Shown: piece by piece, positions 2,747-11,526 of the stretch | Position numbering within the stretch: position 1 is the first letter of the stretch | Layout: the number at the start of each line of letters is the position of its first letter | Virus record (IMG/VR): IMGVR_UViG_3300020378_000020 | Coordinates: 1-30,732 of that record | Source: a virus | DNA length: 30,732 nt | Reading direction: 5' to 3' (one strand) | Notes under the pieces: model-generated | Databases searched by the model: none | What the model was told of the DNA's origin: nothing | The model's input: only the letters and a program-made list of their open reading frames with translations | Made by a program: the position numbers and the translations under genes

Positions 2747-2980
2747 ATGGCAACAACAAATAAATTCGTTATAGAATACGGACTTAAAGTAGGAACTGCT
2801 GATGTTATTGACTCTTCAGGTAAAATTGCAGCCGCAGCCCTGTCGTCAATCGATACAGATGATATAACAGAAGGTTCATCAAATCAGTATTTTACCACTG
2901 CAAAAGTGGATACCCATTTAGCAAATGCTTCAGCTGCAAAAACACTTGCAAACGTTGCTATTGACGGAGGCACAATCTAA
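2747..2980 (+). CDS. Small fibre-related protein, N-terminal paralog of the next gene
   Basis: This 77-residue protein resembles the beginning of the large fibre downstream. It carries the same kind of opening (EYGLKVGTADVIDSSGKI versus NGLSVGGVEVINSSGD) and the motif ITEGSSNQYFT seen again in that fibre as ITEGSSNLYFT. It ends AIDGGTI, like the C-terminus of the gene that ends at 482. The stop overlaps the next start (TAATG), so translation is coupled. It may be a capping or adaptor subunit of the fibre, or a gene split from a longer ancestor. No enzymatic motif is seen. Confidence 0.65.
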   Translation: MATTNKFVIEYGLKVGTADVIDSSGKIAAAALSSIDTDDITEGSSNQYFTTAKVDTHLANASAAKTLANVAIDGGTI

Positions 2981-5040
2981 TGGCAGGAGAAAAGAATTTT
3001 AATATCAAGAACGGTTTATCCGTTGGTGGTGTAGAGGTAATCAACTCTTCAGGTGACTTAGTTGCTGCTGGAGTAGGAACTGCAGTTAACGAAGCAATCG
3101 CAGATAAGATTGGTGGTATTATAAGTGCAACAGGTGGTGCAACTGCAACATATAATGACGGTGCAGACACTATCGTAATTGACGTACCAATTACTGATGA
3201 AGATAACATGGCGTCAAACAGTGCGACTGCAATACCTTCACAACAATCAGTTAAAGCATACGTTGATTCACAAATTTTAACAAAAGACAATACAGACGAA
3301 ATTACAGAAGGTTCTAGTAATTTATATTTTACTAACGCAAGAGCAGATGCAAGAATATCAAACGCAATTAAAGACGAAGATAACATGGCGTCAGATAGTG
3401 CAACTCATGTTCCTTCACAACAATCAGTTAAAGCATATGTAGATGCAGTCACAACATCACTTAACTCACAAGATTTAGATATAAGTTCAGATAGTGGAAC
3501 TATAGATGTTGATTTAGATACTGAAACATTTACTATTGCTGGTGGTGCAGGTATTGATACATCTGCAACTGGTACTACATTAACAATCGCAGGAGAACTT
3601 GCAACAGAAACAAACGCTGGTATCGCAACATTTGACGGTACAGACTTTACAGTATCAAGTGGTGACGTAACAGTTAATGCAGAAAGAATCCAAGACATTG
3701 TCGGTGCAATGGTATCGTCAAATACTGAGTCAGGGATTACAGTTGCATATGAGGACGGAGATGGAACACTAGACTTTACAGTCGGTACACTTAACCAAGA
3801 TACAACAGGAAACGCAGCTACTGCTACTGCATTAGAGACTGCAAGAACTATTGGTGGTGTGTCATTTGACGGTTCTGCAAGTATAAACCTGCCAGGTGTA
3901 AACACTACAGGTAACCAAAATACTACAGGAAGTTCTGCATCATGTACAGGTAACGCAGCTACTGCTACAGCACTTGCAACTGCGAGAACAATTCACGGTG
4001 TATCTTTTGACGGAAGTGCAAATATTGACCTTACAGAAGTAGTTCAAGATACAGTAGGTGCAATGTTCAGTTCGAACACTGAAACAAACGTAACAGCAAC
4101 TTATCAAGATGATGATGGAACTATAGACCTAGTAGTTGGAGATACTACAGGAAACGCCGCTACAGCAACTGCATTAGAAACAGGAAGAACTATCGGAATG
4201 ACTGGTGATGTTGTTTGGACATCTGCAGCTTTTGACGGTTCAGGTAATGTTACAGGTACTGCAACAATTCAAGCTAACTCAGTTGCATTAGGAACAGATA
4301 CAACTGGTAACTATATGTCAGACGTATCTGCAGGAACTGGTGTTACAGTTTCACATACTGCAGGAGAAGGTTCGACTGCAACAATATCTATTGGACAGGC
4401 AGTTTCAACTTCTTCAGACGTTACTTTCGGAGATATAGCTGCAACAGATTTAACACTTAGTGGAAACTTAACAGTTAATGGTACTACAACAACTGCATCT
4501 TCAACTAACACTGTAATCGCAGATACATTGATTGAGTTAGGAAACGGTACATCAGGAACACCTGCAAACGATTCAGGTTTTGTAATCGAAAGGGGTTCAT
4601 CTGATAATGCATTTATTGGTTTTGACGAAAGTGCAGACAAGTTTACAATGGGTACAGGGTCATTTACAGGTGCAAGTACAGGTAACCTAACAATTACAAC
4701 TGGTACTCTTGTTGCAAACTTAGAAGGTAATGTCACTGGTGCTGTAACTGGTAATGCAAGTACAGCAACTACATTACAAAATGCAAGAACAATCAATGGT
4801 GTATCTTTTGACGGAAGTGCAAACATAACAACCTTGACTGCAGGAACAGGTGTTTCTGTATCAGGAACTGCAGTTTCTATTGGACAAGCAGTTGCAACAA
4901 CGTCAGATGTAGAGTTTAATGAGATAACTACAAACTACGCAAGTAATTCAGGTGGAGTCGCAAGAAATATATACCAATCAACCTCAGCTCCAGGCGGTGG
5001 TGACGGTGCAGTTGGTGATTTGTGGATTTTATACTCTTAA
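2980..5040 (+). CDS. Large repeat-rich tail fibre protein
   Basis: This 686-residue protein is built almost entirely of Thr/Ser/Ala/Gly/Asn-rich repeats. Two copies of a segment beginning DEDNMAS and containing PSQQSVKAYVD lie near residues 74 and 132. Several copies of TTGNAATATALETARTI(G/H)GVSFDG-type units lie from residue 270 onward, with further NLTVNGTTTT and NLEGNVTGAVTGNAST stretches. This is the usual make-up of a trimeric beta-helical fibre shaft in marine myoviruses. The C-terminus (IYQSTSAPGGGDGAVGDLWI) is a common fibre ending. It starts within the stop codon of the preceding gene (TAATG). Receptor specificity cannot be inferred. Confidence 0.85.
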   Translation: MAGEKNFNIKNGLSVGGVEVINSSGDLVAAGVGTAVNEAIADKIGGIISATGGATATYNDGADTIVIDVPITDEDNMASNSATAIPSQQSVKAYVDSQILTKDNTDEITEGSSNLYFTNARADARISNAIKDEDNMASDSATHVPSQQSVKAYVDAVTTSLNSQDLDISSDSGTIDVDLDTETFTIAGGAGIDTSATGTTLTIAGELATETNAGIATFDGTDFTVSSGDVTVNAERIQDIVGAMVSSNTESGITVAYEDGDGTLDFTVGTLNQDTTGNAATATALETARTIGGVSFDGSASINLPGVNTTGNQNTTGSSASCTGNAATATALATARTIHGVSFDGSANIDLTEVVQDTVGAMFSSNTETNVTATYQDDDGTIDLVVGDTTGNAATATALETGRTIGMTGDVVWTSAAFDGSGNVTGTATIQANSVALGTDTTGNYMSDVSAGTGVTVSHTAGEGSTATISIGQAVSTSSDVTFGDIAATDLTLSGNLTVNGTTTTASSTNTVIADTLIELGNGTSGTPANDSGFVIERGSSDNAFIGFDESADKFTMGTGSFTGASTGNLTITTGTLVANLEGNVTGAVTGNASTATTLQNARTINGVSFDGSANITTLTAGTGVSVSGTAVSIGQAVATTSDVEFNEITTNYASNSGGVARNIYQSTSAPGGGDGAVGDLWILYS

Positions 5041-5072: not shown

Positions 5073-6371
5073 ATGGCATCAGGAAAACAACACGTCAAAA
5101 CCCCTTCAGGGTGGAATGCAACCCAAGGTGCTTGGGTGAAAACGGGTGGCACAACATGGAAAGCAGTAGACCAAATTTACATTAAAACACCTTCAGGGTG
5201 GAATAATGCATCGGGTCAATCAAATGTACAACAACCATATCCGTACATAGCAAACTCTCAAACACCTTATATTGCTAACGCACAACAACCTTATCCGTAT
5301 ATTGCAAACTCGCAAACACCTTATATTGCGAATGCACAAAATCCTTATCCGTATCAGGCAAATAGTCAGACTCCTGTTATTGCTAACGCACAACAACCGT
5401 ATCCATATCAGGCGAATAGTCAGACTCCATATATTGCGAATGCACAACAACCATACCCATATATTGCAAATAGTCAGACTCCATATCCTGCAAATGCTCA
5501 ACAACCATATCCGTACATAGCAAACAGTCAGAGTCCATTTACATATCAGAACAGGTCACCATTTACATATAGAAACCCTGTTTCTGCACAACAACCATAT
5601 ATTGCAAATGGTCAAAACCCGTTTACATATAACGCAAGGTATCCTGCAAATGCAAGACAACCTAGTAACGGACAAAACCCATTTACATATAACGCAAGGT
5701 ATCCTGCGAATGCTAGGTATCCTGCAAACGGTCAGAACCCGTTTACATATAATGCAAGGTCACCTTTCACCTATAGGGTTCCGTTTACCTATCGAGTACC
5801 TTACATTGCAAACGCAAGGCAGCCTGGTACATATAATGCAAGGTCACCTTTCACATATCCATATAGTTCATTCCCATTCGGGGGTGGTGGTTGTTTCATA
5901 GCTGGAACACAAATTTGGATGGGTGATAATAAACACATTAATATTGAGGACGTTAAAGTTGGTGATTCAGTAATGACATTTGACTTTAATCATATGAAAC
6001 TTATGCCTCAAAATGTAACTCAGGTTATGGTTCCAAGAGAAAATATTAAAGTTTGGAATATAGAATTTACAAACGGAAAAACACTAGGTGTAACTGGTGG
6101 TCACCCGATACATACTAGTTCAGGGTGGAAATATGCGAATCAGGAAGAGTGCGATAACGAATTAGCGTCAGGTGCTGATTGGGGAATCGATTTAGTAGAA
6201 GAACTCCAAGTGGGAGATGAAGTCTTTGCACTAGGAGAAGAAGGTGTAACAGTTAAATCCATAACAGAAAATGGAACTGCGACAGTATATCATTTAACGT
6301 CCGTTGAACACACTAAAACATATTTTGCAGACGGTGTGTTGGTACATAACGGTTATTACGGGAAACACTAA
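5073..6371 (+). CDS. Pro/Tyr-rich repeat fibre protein with C-terminal Hint (intein-like) domain
   Basis: This 432-residue protein has three parts. Residues 1-50 hold two KTPSGWN motifs (9-15, 38-44). Residues 53-268 are low-complexity tandem repeats: five 18-residue units of the PYPYIANSQTPYIANAQQ type (5235-5504), then irregular SPFTYQNR, NPFTYNARYPANAR and VPFTYR units. Residues 274-426 form a Hint fold. It starts at Cys274 after a GGGG linker (GGGGCFIAGTQIWM) and has a block-B TGGHPIH (Thr341, His344). It ends YFADGVLVHN with His425-Asn426, followed by only six residues (GYYGKH). Hint domains cleave peptide bonds at their ends. The +1 residue is Gly, not Cys/Ser/Thr, so bacterial-intein-like processing is more likely than classical splicing. 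The cleaved product and its role are inferred. Confidence 0.8.
   Translation: MASGKQHVKTPSGWNATQGAWVKTGGTTWKAVDQIYIKTPSGWNNASGQSNVQQPYPYIANSQTPYIANAQQPYPYIANSQTPYIANAQNPYPYQANSQTPVIANAQQPYPYQANSQTPYIANAQQPYPYIANSQTPYPANAQQPYPYIANSQSPFTYQNRSPFTYRNPVSAQQPYIANGQNPFTYNARYPANARQPSNGQNPFTYNARYPANARYPANGQNPFTYNARSPFTYRVPFTYRVPYIANARQPGTYNARSPFTYPYSSFPFGGGGCFIAGTQIWMGDNKHINIEDVKVGDSVMTFDFNHMKLMPQNVTQVMVPRENIKVWNIEFTNGKTLGVTGGHPIHTSSGWKYANQEECDNELASGADWGIDLVEELQVGDEVFALGEEGVTVKSITENGTATVYHLTSVEHTKTYFADGVLVHNGYYGKH
5235..5504 (+). repeat. Five 54-bp in-frame tandem repeats
   Basis: Five consecutive 54-base units encode 18-residue variants of PYPYIANSQTPYIANAQQ. Units differ mainly at synonymous or near-synonymous positions (ATT/ATA, GCA/GCT, ATT/CAG), which fits expansion followed by drift. 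A sixth partial unit leads into SPFTYQ-type repeats that continue to about 5870. Confidence 0.9.
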
Positions 6372-7069
6372 TGCCACAGGGTAACGCACAACAACCATCT
6401 ATTGCGAACAGTCAAAGTCCGTTCACATATAATGCTAGGTATCCTGCGAATGCTAGGTATCCTGCATCTGCTCAACAACCGTATATTGCGAATGCGAGAC
6501 AACCTTTCACATATAGGGTTCCATTTACCTATCGAGTACCTTATATTGCGAATGCGAGACAACCGTTTACATACAGACACCCATTTACATATAGGGTTCC
6601 ATACATTGCGAATGCAAGACAACCATTTACTTATCAAAACAGGTCTCCGTTTACATATAGAAACCCTGTAAATGGACAACAACCTTATATTGCAAACGCA
6701 AGACAGCCTGGAACATATCAAAGAACTGGACAGACACCGTTTACATATCAGGCAAGACAGCCTGGAACATATCAAAGAACTGGTAGAACACCGTTCACAT
6801 ATCAGAACAGACAACCTTCTACATATGCAAGACAAGGACAAACTCCTTTCACATATCAACATAGACAGCCAGGAACTTATGAAAGACAAGGTCAAACACC
6901 TACTACATATCAAAACAGGCAGCCTGGAACATATGCCCGACAAGGACAAACTCCATTTACATATCAAAACAGACAGCCTGGAACATATGCAAGACAAGGT
7001 AGGACACCAGTCATTAGGTGGGATAATACACTATCTCAACAATGGCCTGCGACACCAGTTACAAGTTAA
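6371..7069 (+). CDS. Arg/Pro/Tyr-rich repeat protein, partner of the Hint fibre
   Basis: This 232-residue protein is repeat sequence over nearly its whole length, in the same style as the upstream gene (NARYPANARYP, RVPFTYRVPYIANARQPF). From residue 110 to 217 it becomes six regular 18-residue units such as NRQPGTYARQGQTPFTYQ. It ends with a non-repeat tail, WDNTLSQQWPATPVTS. It is strikingly basic: many Arg, one Glu and one Asp in total, and no Lys. The start overlaps the upstream stop (TAATG), so it is translated by coupling. It probably belongs to the same fibre assembly. No enzyme motif is present. It could alternatively bind DNA or a negatively charged surface; the sequence does not decide this. 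Confidence 0.7.
   Translation: MPQGNAQQPSIANSQSPFTYNARYPANARYPASAQQPYIANARQPFTYRVPFTYRVPYIANARQPFTYRHPFTYRVPYIANARQPFTYQNRSPFTYRNPVNGQQPYIANARQPGTYQRTGQTPFTYQARQPGTYQRTGRTPFTYQNRQPSTYARQGQTPFTYQHRQPGTYERQGQTPTTYQNRQPGTYARQGQTPFTYQNRQPGTYARQGRTPVIRWDNTLSQQWPATPVTS
6698..7021 (+). repeat. Six 54-bp in-frame tandem repeats
   Basis: Six 54-base units encode (A/N/H)RQPGTY(Q/A/E)R(T/Q)G(Q/R)TPFTYQ. The period equals that of the repeats in the upstream Hint protein although the motif differs, which suggests a common structural register of 18 residues. Confidence 0.9.
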
Positions 7070-7101: not shown

Positions 7102-8601
7102 ATGAAAAAAATTACTACGCTAGAGCAAGCAAAGTCCACTATTACTAAAGAAACAACCGAGACATTTCATCTTGGGGCACTCAATATTGGTCAAGAAAGT
7201 CTAGACCAAGAAACCTTTGACATAATGAACTGGATGTTCGAAGAGATACTTCCACCACTTAAAATTTTTAAATGGGGTGATATACTTCAACAGAGAAAAG
7301 ATAAAAAGTTCATGGGTTTTAATGGAATGCAAAATAAAGCAATACCATATCACACATATCTACATAAGGGGTATTCGTCTCTTAAAATGCAAGGAAACCA
7401 CGCAGGATTTGGTTTTAAGACACTAGACGGTACAGAAAAATCAATTACCGATTCTATGATTCCACATTACGATGAGATGGTGGGGTCGTGTTATTATCAT
7501 GGTGCAAAAGGACACTGGTTAACACAAAGTATTATGGAAGAAGGACTTTGGGCACCAATCCAAGGATACACTAGAACTGCAGGTGGTAAGTGTCAATTAA
7601 CAATTCACCCAGGCTCTGTTCGTTCCTGTATATTCGAAGAAATGGAAAATGAAGATATGGAACTAATGATATGGGATAGGACTGGTGATTTAGATTTTCT
7701 ACCAAGTGCAACATTCCAAAATGCATTAGATTACTGGAAAGGTAAATTAGATAAAAAGGAAAGACACCTTAATATATCATTTCTATTCACGAGAGGTGCA
7801 ATAGAATGGCAAACAGATTTAGCAGAATTAGGATTTAGAGAAAAGGTATTTGAATTTAACAAAAGAATTACCGAACTTTCTGCAGGTAAACCACTTTCCA
7901 TATACATTGGATATGATAGTACAATGAATGATTTAGAGAAAGTGTGTGAGAAATCAATTAGAGATACAATTCGACTTGCACATTCAACTGGGGAAGGAGA
8001 ACAATACATGAAGTATGACCCAGTTATCAAATTGCTTGACATTTCTAAACTTCCCGATTATAATAGGGAGTACGCAAATCAAAGTACTGAATTTACATAC
8101 AGTAGATTCTTAATTCCATATCTAGAAAATTACGAAGGATTTAGTTTATTCATAGATAACGATTTCATATTTAAGAAATCTCTATTACCTATGTTTTATT
8201 ATCTCAATCCTAATGATGCAGTTGCGTGTATCAAATACCCACAATATCAACATGATGAATCTAAATTTAATGGAGAAGTTAATATAGACTATCCATGTAA
8301 GTTGTGGTCTTCAATGATGTTCTTCAATAACAGTCATGAGGACTGTAAGAAGTTAACACCTGAAGTAGTAAACACTTGGACTGGAAAACAATTACACCAG
8401 TTTGAGTGGACTAACGCAATATCCGAAATACCTCAAAAATACATATTTGTGGAAGGTTATGACAATCCTGATGAAAAATGGGATTACACTGGAATCCATT
8501 ACACTAGGGGAGGCCCATGGATAAATGATATGGATTATTCGTCAATAAATAATCTTGAAGTGTACCACAAGTACAAAAACCTCTATGACAACACAAAATA
8601 A
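7102..8601 (+). CDS. GT8-like (glycogenin-type) glycosyltransferase with N-terminal extra domain
   Basis: In this 499-residue protein the C-terminal half looks like a GT-A family 8 glycosyltransferase. It has an SIYIGYDSTMN strand near residues 264-274, an EFTYSRFLIPYL segment, and LFIDNDF with Asp352-Asn-Asp354 as the metal/nucleotide-sugar DxD motif. NDAVACIKYP follows. Family 8 enzymes move sugars from UDP- or similar donors; glycogenin modifies tyrosine. Residues 1-260 are not part of that fold. They contain GLWAPIQGY and LTIHPGSVRS, faintly recalling ParB/substrate-binding sequences, but I do not identify them. It lies directly after two Tyr/Pro-rich repeat proteins, so virion glycosylation is a reasonable inference; host surface modification is the alternative. 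Confidence 0.7.
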   Translation: MKKITTLEQAKSTITKETTETFHLGALNIGQESLDQETFDIMNWMFEEILPPLKIFKWGDILQQRKDKKFMGFNGMQNKAIPYHTYLHKGYSSLKMQGNHAGFGFKTLDGTEKSITDSMIPHYDEMVGSCYYHGAKGHWLTQSIMEEGLWAPIQGYTRTAGGKCQLTIHPGSVRSCIFEEMENEDMELMIWDRTGDLDFLPSATFQNALDYWKGKLDKKERHLNISFLFTRGAIEWQTDLAELGFREKVFEFNKRITELSAGKPLSIYIGYDSTMNDLEKVCEKSIRDTIRLAHSTGEGEQYMKYDPVIKLLDISKLPDYNREYANQSTEFTYSRFLIPYLENYEGFSLFIDNDFIFKKSLLPMFYYLNPNDAVACIKYPQYQHDESKFNGEVNIDYPCKLWSSMMFFNNSHEDCKKLTPEVVNTWTGKQLHQFEWTNAISEIPQKYIFVEGYDNPDEKWDYTGIHYTRGGPWINDMDYSSINNLEVYHKYKNLYDNTK

Positions 8602-9208: not shown

Positions 9209-9919
9209 ATGGAGATAGTTCACTTAGATGAACCATTCAAAATACAAGACTTACCACTAACAAAGGTTTATGTATTAGATAATTGGTTAGCCCAACCCTT
9301 ACACCACCACTATGATTCGTGGATTTCTCGAAATAATATTTGGAGTAAAACAAATCAAGTTGAGAGTGGTTCGTCCACGGGTTTACCACATCATAGTTTT
9401 TGGGGTGCAACCTTTTTTAGACATAATTATGCGATTGATAGGGATACTAAAGTTGAAGAAACTTGGTTTACAAGATACCTAGATAGAAGACTACAAACTG
9501 AATTCGGGTTTAAGTGGGTTAGGTTTCAGTATGCAGGTTTAAACTCGCAAACTGTAGGATTACAAGGAACAACCCATTCAGATTGCGATAAAGACGATGC
9601 TTGGAATCTTTCGTTTTTATACTATCCAAATAGATTTTGGAATCCTGCGTGGGGTGGAAGATTGAGATTCTATGATTCACCACAACAAGGATTAGACGGA
9701 AGAGACGAACATATTAAAAATCACCAAATAGGTGAGGTTGATTTTAAACCAAATAGACTTATTATGTTTGACGGAAGAATACCACATGGTGCAGATGCAC
9801 CCGAAGAGTCTGCAAGATATATGGACAGAAGGTCACTTGTAATTCGTGGAGACGAAGTAAGACTAGAAGAAGAAGGAGAGAATTATCATGCCAACGATAG
9901 ATTTTCATACATACGATAA
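9209..9919 (+). CDS. 2-oxoglutarate/Fe(II)-dependent oxygenase (prolyl-hydroxylase-like)
   Basis: This 236-residue protein has the double-stranded beta-helix iron triad. HSD motif: His123 and Asp125 in GTTHSDCD. Distal His: His193 in IPHGA. A 2-oxoglutarate-binding Arg is near 207-208 (DRRSLVIR). The intervening SFLYYPNRFWNPAWGGRLRFY is the usual core of phage prolyl-4-hydroxylase-like enzymes. Such enzymes hydroxylate protein side chains, nucleobases or small molecules; the substrate is not encoded in the motif. Its position next to Pro-rich fibre proteins suggests a protein substrate, as inference. The last 32 bases overlap the next gene, whose ribosome binding site (AAGGAGAG) lies inside this one. 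Confidence 0.85.
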   Translation: MEIVHLDEPFKIQDLPLTKVYVLDNWLAQPLHHHYDSWISRNNIWSKTNQVESGSSTGLPHHSFWGATFFRHNYAIDRDTKVEETWFTRYLDRRLQTEFGFKWVRFQYAGLNSQTVGLQGTTHSDCDKDDAWNLSFLYYPNRFWNPAWGGRLRFYDSPQQGLDGRDEHIKNHQIGEVDFKPNRLIMFDGRIPHGADAPEESARYMDRRSLVIRGDEVRLEEEGENYHANDRFSYIR

Positions 9920-10826
9920 AGAAACAGTAAGAAACTTTAGACCAGTTCTCGCAAAATCTGTTGCTCCTAGTTGGTGGAAAAAGGCAAAAGTTGCTGAAGT
10001 GGTAAATGGTATAGTTGCAAAAACTATTAGGTCTTGTCCTGCAATGCAAGATTGGTTATCTTCAGGTTATCTAATCCTCGCAAATAGAGACATATATGTA
10101 AGAAATGGTGTAACACCTGAAGATTCAAATACAAGATTTTTCCATACCGAAGATACTGTATTGGACGAAATGGAAACTTATGCATCTGCAACACACCCAA
10201 CTATACAAATGCATGATGCATTCTCGTATATGTCTACAAGTGATGCACCAGTAAAAGATGCATTTAAAATGTCTAATCCTTGGAACATAACTACACCACC
10301 AGGCTATTCGTGTTTTTATCTAGACCCATTCTTATTTCAAAATGATTACTTTGCAACATGGCAAGGTATTATTGATACAGATAAATTCAATGTAAACAAA
10401 GATAACTCTCAAATTATCTTTTATCCTAAAGTGAATCATTCGTTTGTTATTAAGAAAGGAACACCTATATGTCAGGTAATTCCTTATCAAAGAGAAGAGT
10501 GGGTTGCAACGTATACAGTAAAAGACCATAAATCATATATTACTAATCTATCCGAATACACTACAGAAAGAGAAGACGGTCATAAGACTATGGCAGAATT
10601 ATCTAGAACAGGACTTGCAGATGAATTGCATAAGGCAGGGCCATATAAGAGAGGAAGAAGGTGGCAACCTAAACATAAAGATTTCAAAGAGGATTTAGAA
10701 GGGTGTCCATTCGACCCTAAAACAGGTAAATTAAAACCTGAGTTTCAACAAGAAATGGAAAAAAACTTTAAAGAAGAACAATTAAAAAGAACAGACTTAA
10801 ATTGGGACGGACAAGATGGCAGTTAG
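9888..10826 (+). CDS. DUF6065-like protein
   Basis: In this 312-residue protein, residues 28-65 (APSWWKKAK..., then IRSCPAMQDWLSSGYLI) and the aromatic-rich centre (PPGYSCFYLDPFLFQ, IIFYPKVNHSFVIKKGTP, ICQVIPYQREEW) resemble the DUF6065 proteins found in marine phages. These are often near oxygenases and glycan genes. The centre looks like a beta-barrel or cupin-like domain. The C-terminal 80 residues are Lys/Glu-rich and helical. The ATG at 9888 is supported by a strong AAGGAGAG seven bases upstream. The function is unknown; the family name is from memory of its signature and should be treated as tentative. Confidence 0.6.
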   Translation: MPTIDFHTYDKETVRNFRPVLAKSVAPSWWKKAKVAEVVNGIVAKTIRSCPAMQDWLSSGYLILANRDIYVRNGVTPEDSNTRFFHTEDTVLDEMETYASATHPTIQMHDAFSYMSTSDAPVKDAFKMSNPWNITTPPGYSCFYLDPFLFQNDYFATWQGIIDTDKFNVNKDNSQIIFYPKVNHSFVIKKGTPICQVIPYQREEWVATYTVKDHKSYITNLSEYTTEREDGHKTMAELSRTGLADELHKAGPYKRGRRWQPKHKDFKEDLEGCPFDPKTGKLKPEFQQEMEKNFKEEQLKRTDLNWDGQDGS

Positions 10827-11526
10827 ATTATTATTCCCAACCCCTATTTTTCATAGAAACTTTACACAAGAAAATCTTTCAGACGATAGAGGATTTGATA
10901 AAGATTATTGTTTAATGTTAAGAGATGAAATGGATGCGATGCGAAGAAGAGACCCAGTGGGTAGACAACTTTCAAATCAATATACAGGTTGGCAGTCAAA
11001 TGACGGGTGTGAGTCTAATCCTACTTTTCAAAAATGTATGAATAGAATCATAACATTTTTTAATGACGAAGCATTACCTTATCATGGATTAGACCCTAGT
11101 CTTTGTAAAATGGAAATAACAAATTCATGGGCAAACATTAACGACAATGGTGCTTGGAATGCACCACACTTACACAATGGGTGTTGGTATAGTGGTGTTT
11201 TTTATATACACGCAGAAGGTGATGAAGGACGTATTTCATTTCTTGATACACACCAAAAGGTTGCAGCTGATTTTCCTAACAGTCCTAGAACCCCAACTTC
11301 ATATCCTTTTTTACCTGTAACGGGTGAGTGTATATTGTTTCCAAGTGGTCTAATGCATATGGTTGAACCAAATCCTACAAATAAAGAAAGATATAGTATA
11401 TCATTCAACACTATTATAAATTACGAATCACTCGAATCAGGTCATGCAAGAAACGGTCAAATAGAAGACTATAATGAAAATGAATTTTTATTTGATTTAG
11501 ATATGAAAGGAAACCCAATCAGATAG
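10816..11526 (+). CDS. 2OG-Fe(II) oxygenase, LFPTPIF family
   Basis: This 236-residue protein opens with LLFPTPIFHRNF, the hallmark start of the Pfam 2OG-FeII_Oxy_5 (TIGR02466) family. It also carries NSWANIN (103-109), NAPHLHNGCWYSGVFYI with His118 and His120, and the distal half ECILFPSGLMHMVEPN (His181). ERYSISFN follows (Arg192). All expected ligand regions are present, so the enzyme looks intact. The substrate is unknown for the family. It overlaps the preceding gene by 11 bases and closes the modification cassette; the next gene has a separate late promoter. Confidence 0.88.
   Translation: MAVRLLFPTPIFHRNFTQENLSDDRGFDKDYCLMLRDEMDAMRRRDPVGRQLSNQYTGWQSNDGCESNPTFQKCMNRIITFFNDEALPYHGLDPSLCKMEITNSWANINDNGAWNAPHLHNGCWYSGVFYIHAEGDEGRISFLDTHQKVAADFPNSPRTPTSYPFLPVTGECILFPSGLMHMVEPNPTNKERYSISFNTIINYESLESGHARNGQIEDYNENEFLFDLDMKGNPIR

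Follow-up and report, generated by a model that had tools for sequence, protein, structure and literature searches.

Gene, modules and genomic setting

The gene P0001 occupies positions 5073–6371 of the window, the whole stretch of 30 732 nucleotides of viral DNA analysed here, and encodes a Pro/Tyr repeat protein of 432 aa that ends in a Hint domain followed by six residues. All of the features described here lie on the + strand. The N-terminal module (5073–5219, residues 1–49, KTPSGW...WK..IYIKTPSGWNNASGQ), which is common to Hint-plus and Hint-less members of the family, is followed by a Pro/Tyr/Asn/Gln repeat region (5220–5870, residues 50–266) without Lys, Asp, Glu or Cys, and these four residues are absent from the whole of residues 46–273. 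The Hint/BIL-like domain (5892–6350, residues 274–426) comes directly after a Gly linker, GGGG (5880–5891, residues 270–273), which is the predicted end of the N-extein and places Gly at −1. The domain includes Cys274 in block A, TGGH (341–344) in block B and His425-Asn426 in block G, and the six-residue tail GYYGKH (6351–6368), the predicted C-extein, has Lys as its penultimate residue. All of these residues are as given in the preliminary description of this DNA. The P0001 stop codon overlaps (TAATG) the start of a second repeat protein (6371–7069), which has no Hint domain and a conserved C-terminus, GRTPVIRWDNTLSQQWPATPVTS, and this gene adjoins the fibre gene in both Hint-plus and Hint-less relatives.

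The window carries T4-type portal, sheath, terminase and neck genes, and its portal shares ~56 % identity with the portals of marine cyanophages and of Methylophilales phages. P0001 had been described as a repeat fibre protein. Tandem DNA arrays in its N-terminal part, with main periods of 54–60 bp, bear out the repeats, and the fibre label rests on the gene neighbourhood, namely an adjoining tail-fibre gene (2980–5040) and nearby neck and tail genes. It has no structural support because the repeat region was predicted at low confidence in the full-length model, which was too poor for a description of the fibre fold, and this was dropped. The Pro/Tyr-rich repeat proteins are closely followed downstream by a weak glycosyltransferase family 8-like protein (7102–8601) and two 2OG-Fe(II) oxygenase-like proteins (9209–9919 and 10816–11526), for which modification of the Pro/Tyr repeats is a possible role.

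Identity of the C-terminal domain

The structure prediction and profile search proposed earlier as checks on the Hint assignment were run and both found a Hint match. The Pfam matches of P0001 to Vint (9.4e-8) and Hint (1.9e-7) passed the curated cut-offs, whereas that to Intein_splicing (6.3e-7), which runs through residue 426, did not. A search of PDB sequences returned a Tetrahymena BIL domain (2.2e-4) and DnaB inteins. The AlphaFold2 model of residues 254–432 has pLDDT values above about 90 across nearly the whole Hint region and, when it was compared with known structures using Foldseek, BIL structures (6tmm, 6y75 and 2lwy) ranked first, followed by DnaB inteins, with Hedgehog (1at0) lower. 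Hence, profile, PDB sequence, predicted structure and fold comparison agree in a firm assignment of residues 274–426 as an intein-type Hint domain with all catalytic positions. In our reading, block F has Lys where many inteins have His, which could slow Asn cyclisation.

Three other identities were considered and rejected. The PT-HINT match is below its Pfam cut-off and only six residues remain after the Hint domain, where a pretoxin would have a C-terminal toxin domain. The Hedgehog autoprocessing (Hog) domain shares the Hint fold, Cys1 and the C-terminal position, but it has a sterol-recognition region and does without a C-terminal Asn, whereas P0001 has a C-terminal His-Asn followed by six residues. 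A tail-fibre chaperone of the peptidase S74 type would need an S74 domain, and the Pfam scan of P0001 found none.

The residue at +1, Gly427, is not a nucleophile, which rules out canonical class 1 trans-esterification, as had been noted. P0001 has the Hint fold, Cys1, a C-terminal His-Asn and in-frame presence and absence in homologous genes in common with class 1 mini-inteins (Ssp DnaB, gp41-1), but it lacks a Cys, Ser or Thr at +1 and lies in a Gly linker near the end of the protein, not in a conserved functional motif. The closer likeness is to type A BILs (C. thermocellum, PDB 2lwy), with which it shares the Hint fold, Cys1, a block B T-x-x-H, the C-terminal His-Asn, a non-nucleophilic +1 residue and a variable, non-conserved host protein. 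It differs from 2lwy in that the host is a phage repeat or tail protein, the C-extein, in the fibre family, is 4–13 residues long and follows a Gly-run, and the domain is present or absent in syntenic viral loci. Tetrahymena BUBL1 BIL2 (6tmm, 6y75) is the best match in both fold and PDB sequence, though it is from a eukaryote and has ubiquitin-like domains on its flanks. Searches of the open-access literature yielded no account of BIL or Hint domains that end phage tail proteins. To our knowledge, the biological role of BIL domains is largely open.

Hint-plus and Hint-less members of the fibre family

Scans of viral contigs, with up to 80 loci among the matches listed, indicate at least 257 relatives of P0001. 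No fibre relative was found in the isolate-phage collection, where the best Hint matches were mostly helicase, terminase or ribonucleotide-reductase inteins. The repeat region and the C-terminus vary among the relatives. When 43 non-redundant members were classed by a simple rule, under which L028, L049 and L070 are among the debatable assignments, 14 were assigned a terminal Hint domain and 16 a short Gly-rich tail, while most of the remaining 13 have some other globular domain at the end. Unrelated globular domains occupy the Hint position in L026, L032, L036, L050, L052 and L061, that of L026 being without a Pfam match.

The Hint-bearing L074 is syntenic with the Hint-less L030 and L043 over ~13 ORFs at about 58–85 % identity. 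L074 ends VYFYGGGG[Hint]ISTK-taaTGAG and L030/L043 end VYFYGGGGGGGGFFPQQLK-taaTGAG, so the genes match as far as the Gly-run and then once more in the region of the stop codon. This agreement on both sides suggests that the Hint domain was gained or lost at one point, between the Gly-run and the tail. The same ending in Hint-less relatives bears on the earlier argument that the short tail speaks against splicing: since these proteins also end in a Gly-run and a short tail, that of P0001 behaves as a C-extein and not as a leftover.

In several loci the tail runs into the start codon of the following gene (TAATG) and may also contain the ribosome-binding site of that gene; hence, some of its conservation could reflect a constraint on the DNA. 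That basic tail ends are simply a by-product of ribosome-binding sites is retained as a partial caveat. A final Lys or Arg is also found in tails that do not overlap the next gene (L016 and L074).

Conservation of the catalytic residues

The catalytic Cys1, block B T/S-x-x-H and His-Asn are kept in all but one of the fibre Hint domains (17 others compared), though those of the most distant clades share only 25–40 % identity. The dN/dS values of eight pairs range from 0.09 to 0.22 and, on these values, the domain is under strong purifying selection. The exception, L025 (6001–7263), is a fibre relative in which the Hint domain ends GHLVDS; His-Asn has been lost, Cys1 and the block B His are kept, and it offers a natural test of the N-terminal chemistry alone.

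A Cys, Ser or Thr was found at +1 in none of the 53 terminal Hint domains (0/24 viral and 0/29 cellular), and Lys was found there in 30 of them. Most terminal tails contain Lys, and in five proteins (L122, L127, L134, L167 and L215) a single Lys follows the Hint domain (HNK-stop). Lys lies within the last two residues in 15/15 non-redundant fibre Hint tails with His-Asn, compared to 16 % of other proteins of the same contigs, a bias with a chance of about 2e-5 when the tails are counted as six clades and due in part to ancestry, since a final Lys or Arg is common in Hint-less tails as well.

Hint domains in other tail proteins

Two further tail protein families, both unrelated to the fibre, have the same arrangement of Gly-run, Hint domain and short tail, and both keep their native tail ends. 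The first resembles a baseplate hub, with a match to the phiJL001 Gp84 baseplate-hub attachment domain slightly under the family cut-off, and the second includes one relative annotated as ‘minor tail protein L’. L159, which is tail-assembly-protein-like, is a fourth case of this layout. In a tree of 112 rows, the Hint domains of the fibre, hub and L-like sets form three separate supported clades, the divergent L025 aside. Hence, a Hint-type domain appears to have been acquired by unrelated phage tail proteins on at least three occasions, each time between a Gly linker and a short tail. Roseobacter phage CRP-811 was considered as an isolate with a Hint-bearing hub and was rejected, as its annotation consists of a short hub gene and then the next gene, without a Hint domain.

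In the L-like family, where homology of the tails is stronger than in the fibre family, the Hint-bearing L335, which ends GGGG[Hint]KRDIGRDNRAVLRR, is 90 % identical before the Gly-run to the Hint-less L338, which ends GGGGGDRGGGGGRRAVLRR, and the two have the RAVLRR tail end and the following DNA in common. In-frame presence and absence of the domain was thus seen in three sets of homologous genes (L074 and L030/L043, L335 and L338, L255 and L261). L335 and L412 have Hint domains that are 89 % identical and host parts that share only 58 % identity, while L412 ends RNIQER, as do its Hint-less kin L392 and L399. A Hint domain like that of L335 together with the tail end of its own kin suggests that the cassette moved between hosts, each of which kept its own tail end, and it is mainly this one host pair that points to mobility by recombination. 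A Gly-run precedes Cys1 in 18/26 viral terminal Hint domains, compared to 2/18 viral internal and 5/60 cellular ones, and runs of Gly codons may be the sites at which the cassette is gained and lost by recombination.

A Gly-run followed by a short polar tail, in many cases with Arg or Lys as its last residue, is also the C-terminus of unrelated marine phage tail proteins among the Hint-less relatives (L338, L363 and others), and has the appearance of a shared tail for docking or assembly.

Proposed self-processing and alternatives

We prefer the reading, with a probability of about 0.6, that the P0001 Hint domain is an A-type-BIL-like cassette that excises itself from the Gly linker, with cleavage probably the main outcome and some ligation of body to tail plausible. 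It is preferred because P0001 fits the rules for type A BILs and BIL2. The repeat fibre, ending GGGG, and the tail GYYGKH would be the exteins on either side of the cassette. An N-S acyl shift at Gly273-Cys274 is predicted to convert the fibre to a thioester, and cyclisation of Asn426 would then free the tail. Hydrolysis of the thioester would leave a fibre that terminates in GGGG, and this product probably predominates; alternatively, an amine of the tail could attack the thioester to form fibre-GGGG-GYYGKH, which would resemble natural Hint-less proteins and contain the predicted junction peptide ...SSFPFGGGGGYYGK. For the whole protein, the calculated masses (Da) are 48126 for the unprocessed form, 30498 for residues 1–273, 16941 for the Hint domain (about 17 lower as aminosuccinimide), 17647 for the Hint domain with its tail and 31204 for residues 1–273 ligated to GYYGKH. 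We infer the activity of the cassette, the order of these steps and the balance of cleavage and ligation.

Splicing had been judged unlikely in the preliminary description on account of the +1 Gly and the six-residue tail. That judgement does not hold, as type A BILs, which have His-Asn and no nucleophile at +1, share this layout and, though they mostly cleave, can splice via attack of a freed amine on the N-terminal thioester (PMC4031507). However, another review holds that A-type BILs are unable to ligate their flanks (PMC7765530), so the sources differ on this point. By analogy with type A BILs, we predict autocleavage of P0001 with or without splicing. Ligation of body to tail is plausible in view of the retained tail, which resembles the ends of Hint-less proteins; the missing +1 nucleophile, the shortness of the tail and its overlap with the next start codon in several loci argue against it. 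The persistence of L025 without His-Asn argues against self-excision itself. The findings suggest that proteins made by viruses with such cassettes cleave, and may also re-ligate, themselves.

A bolder version, which we put forward only tentatively, is that phage tail genes have repeatedly captured mobile BIL-like cassettes at runs of Gly codons, and that these need no +1 nucleophile to splice, the body being linked to a short basic tail via the alpha-amine of the tail or, as in Tetrahymena BIL2, a Lys side chain. If so, mature virions would hold self-ligated or isopeptide-linked tail proteins.

Cleavage alone, in which residues 1–273 and the Hint domain are released, the tail of six residues is lost and the thioester undergoes hydrolysis, would serve to time maturation or trim the fibre end. 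The products of type A BILs arise mainly from cleavage (PMC4031507; PMC7664689), the P0001 tail is just six residues and some relatives stop exactly at HNK. We nevertheless consider this explanation rather unlikely, as it leaves unaccounted for the retention of tails like those of Hint-less relatives, the Lys bias in their last two positions and the native tail ends kept in the hub-like and L-like families.

Transfer of the fibre thioester to an amine elsewhere, for example on a tail Lys (forming an isopeptide), on a different virion protein or on the cell surface, is improbable, though not without precedent. BIL2, the closest fold, attaches its N-extein to the side chains of Lys residues, those in other proteins among them (PMC8616854), and this measured ligation is a precedent for attack by an amine, the isopeptide being only possible in P0001, where Lys is present in most related tails and common at +1. 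The thioester proposed earlier stands as a fair prediction, still of an intermediate, but its suggested delivery to the host surface finds little support, because baseplate-hub-like and L-like proteins share the arrangement.

It is also doubtful that the domain is an unreactive folded tip or receptor-binding module. Other fibre members do have unrelated globular C-termini at the same place and L025 lacks His-Asn, but the retention of Cys1, the block B His and His-Asn in the other 17 fibre Hint domains and the strong purifying selection speak against lost activity. That the domain trimerises and folds the fibre before cutting itself off, in the style of peptidase S74, would suit its C-terminal position and predicted self-cleavage but is highly improbable, as in 16/43 members the C-terminus is classed as no more than a short Gly-rich tail, so that the fibre needs no C-terminal domain in general, the hub protein also bears the cassette, and the Pfam scan gave no S74 match.

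Syntenic loci that pair Hint-plus with Hint-minus genes, captures on three independent occasions at like sites, and short exteins provide a natural setting in which the question of whether BILs splice, cleave or transfer is directly testable. If the cassettes ligate, they would be small tools for protein ligation free of a +1 nucleophile.

Marine virus proteins of ~740–925 aa (L109–L111, L121, L132, L138–L142, L146, L147, L150, L154, L161 and L166) were seen to consist of two, three or more Hint-like modules in a row, the next module beginning almost directly after each HN.
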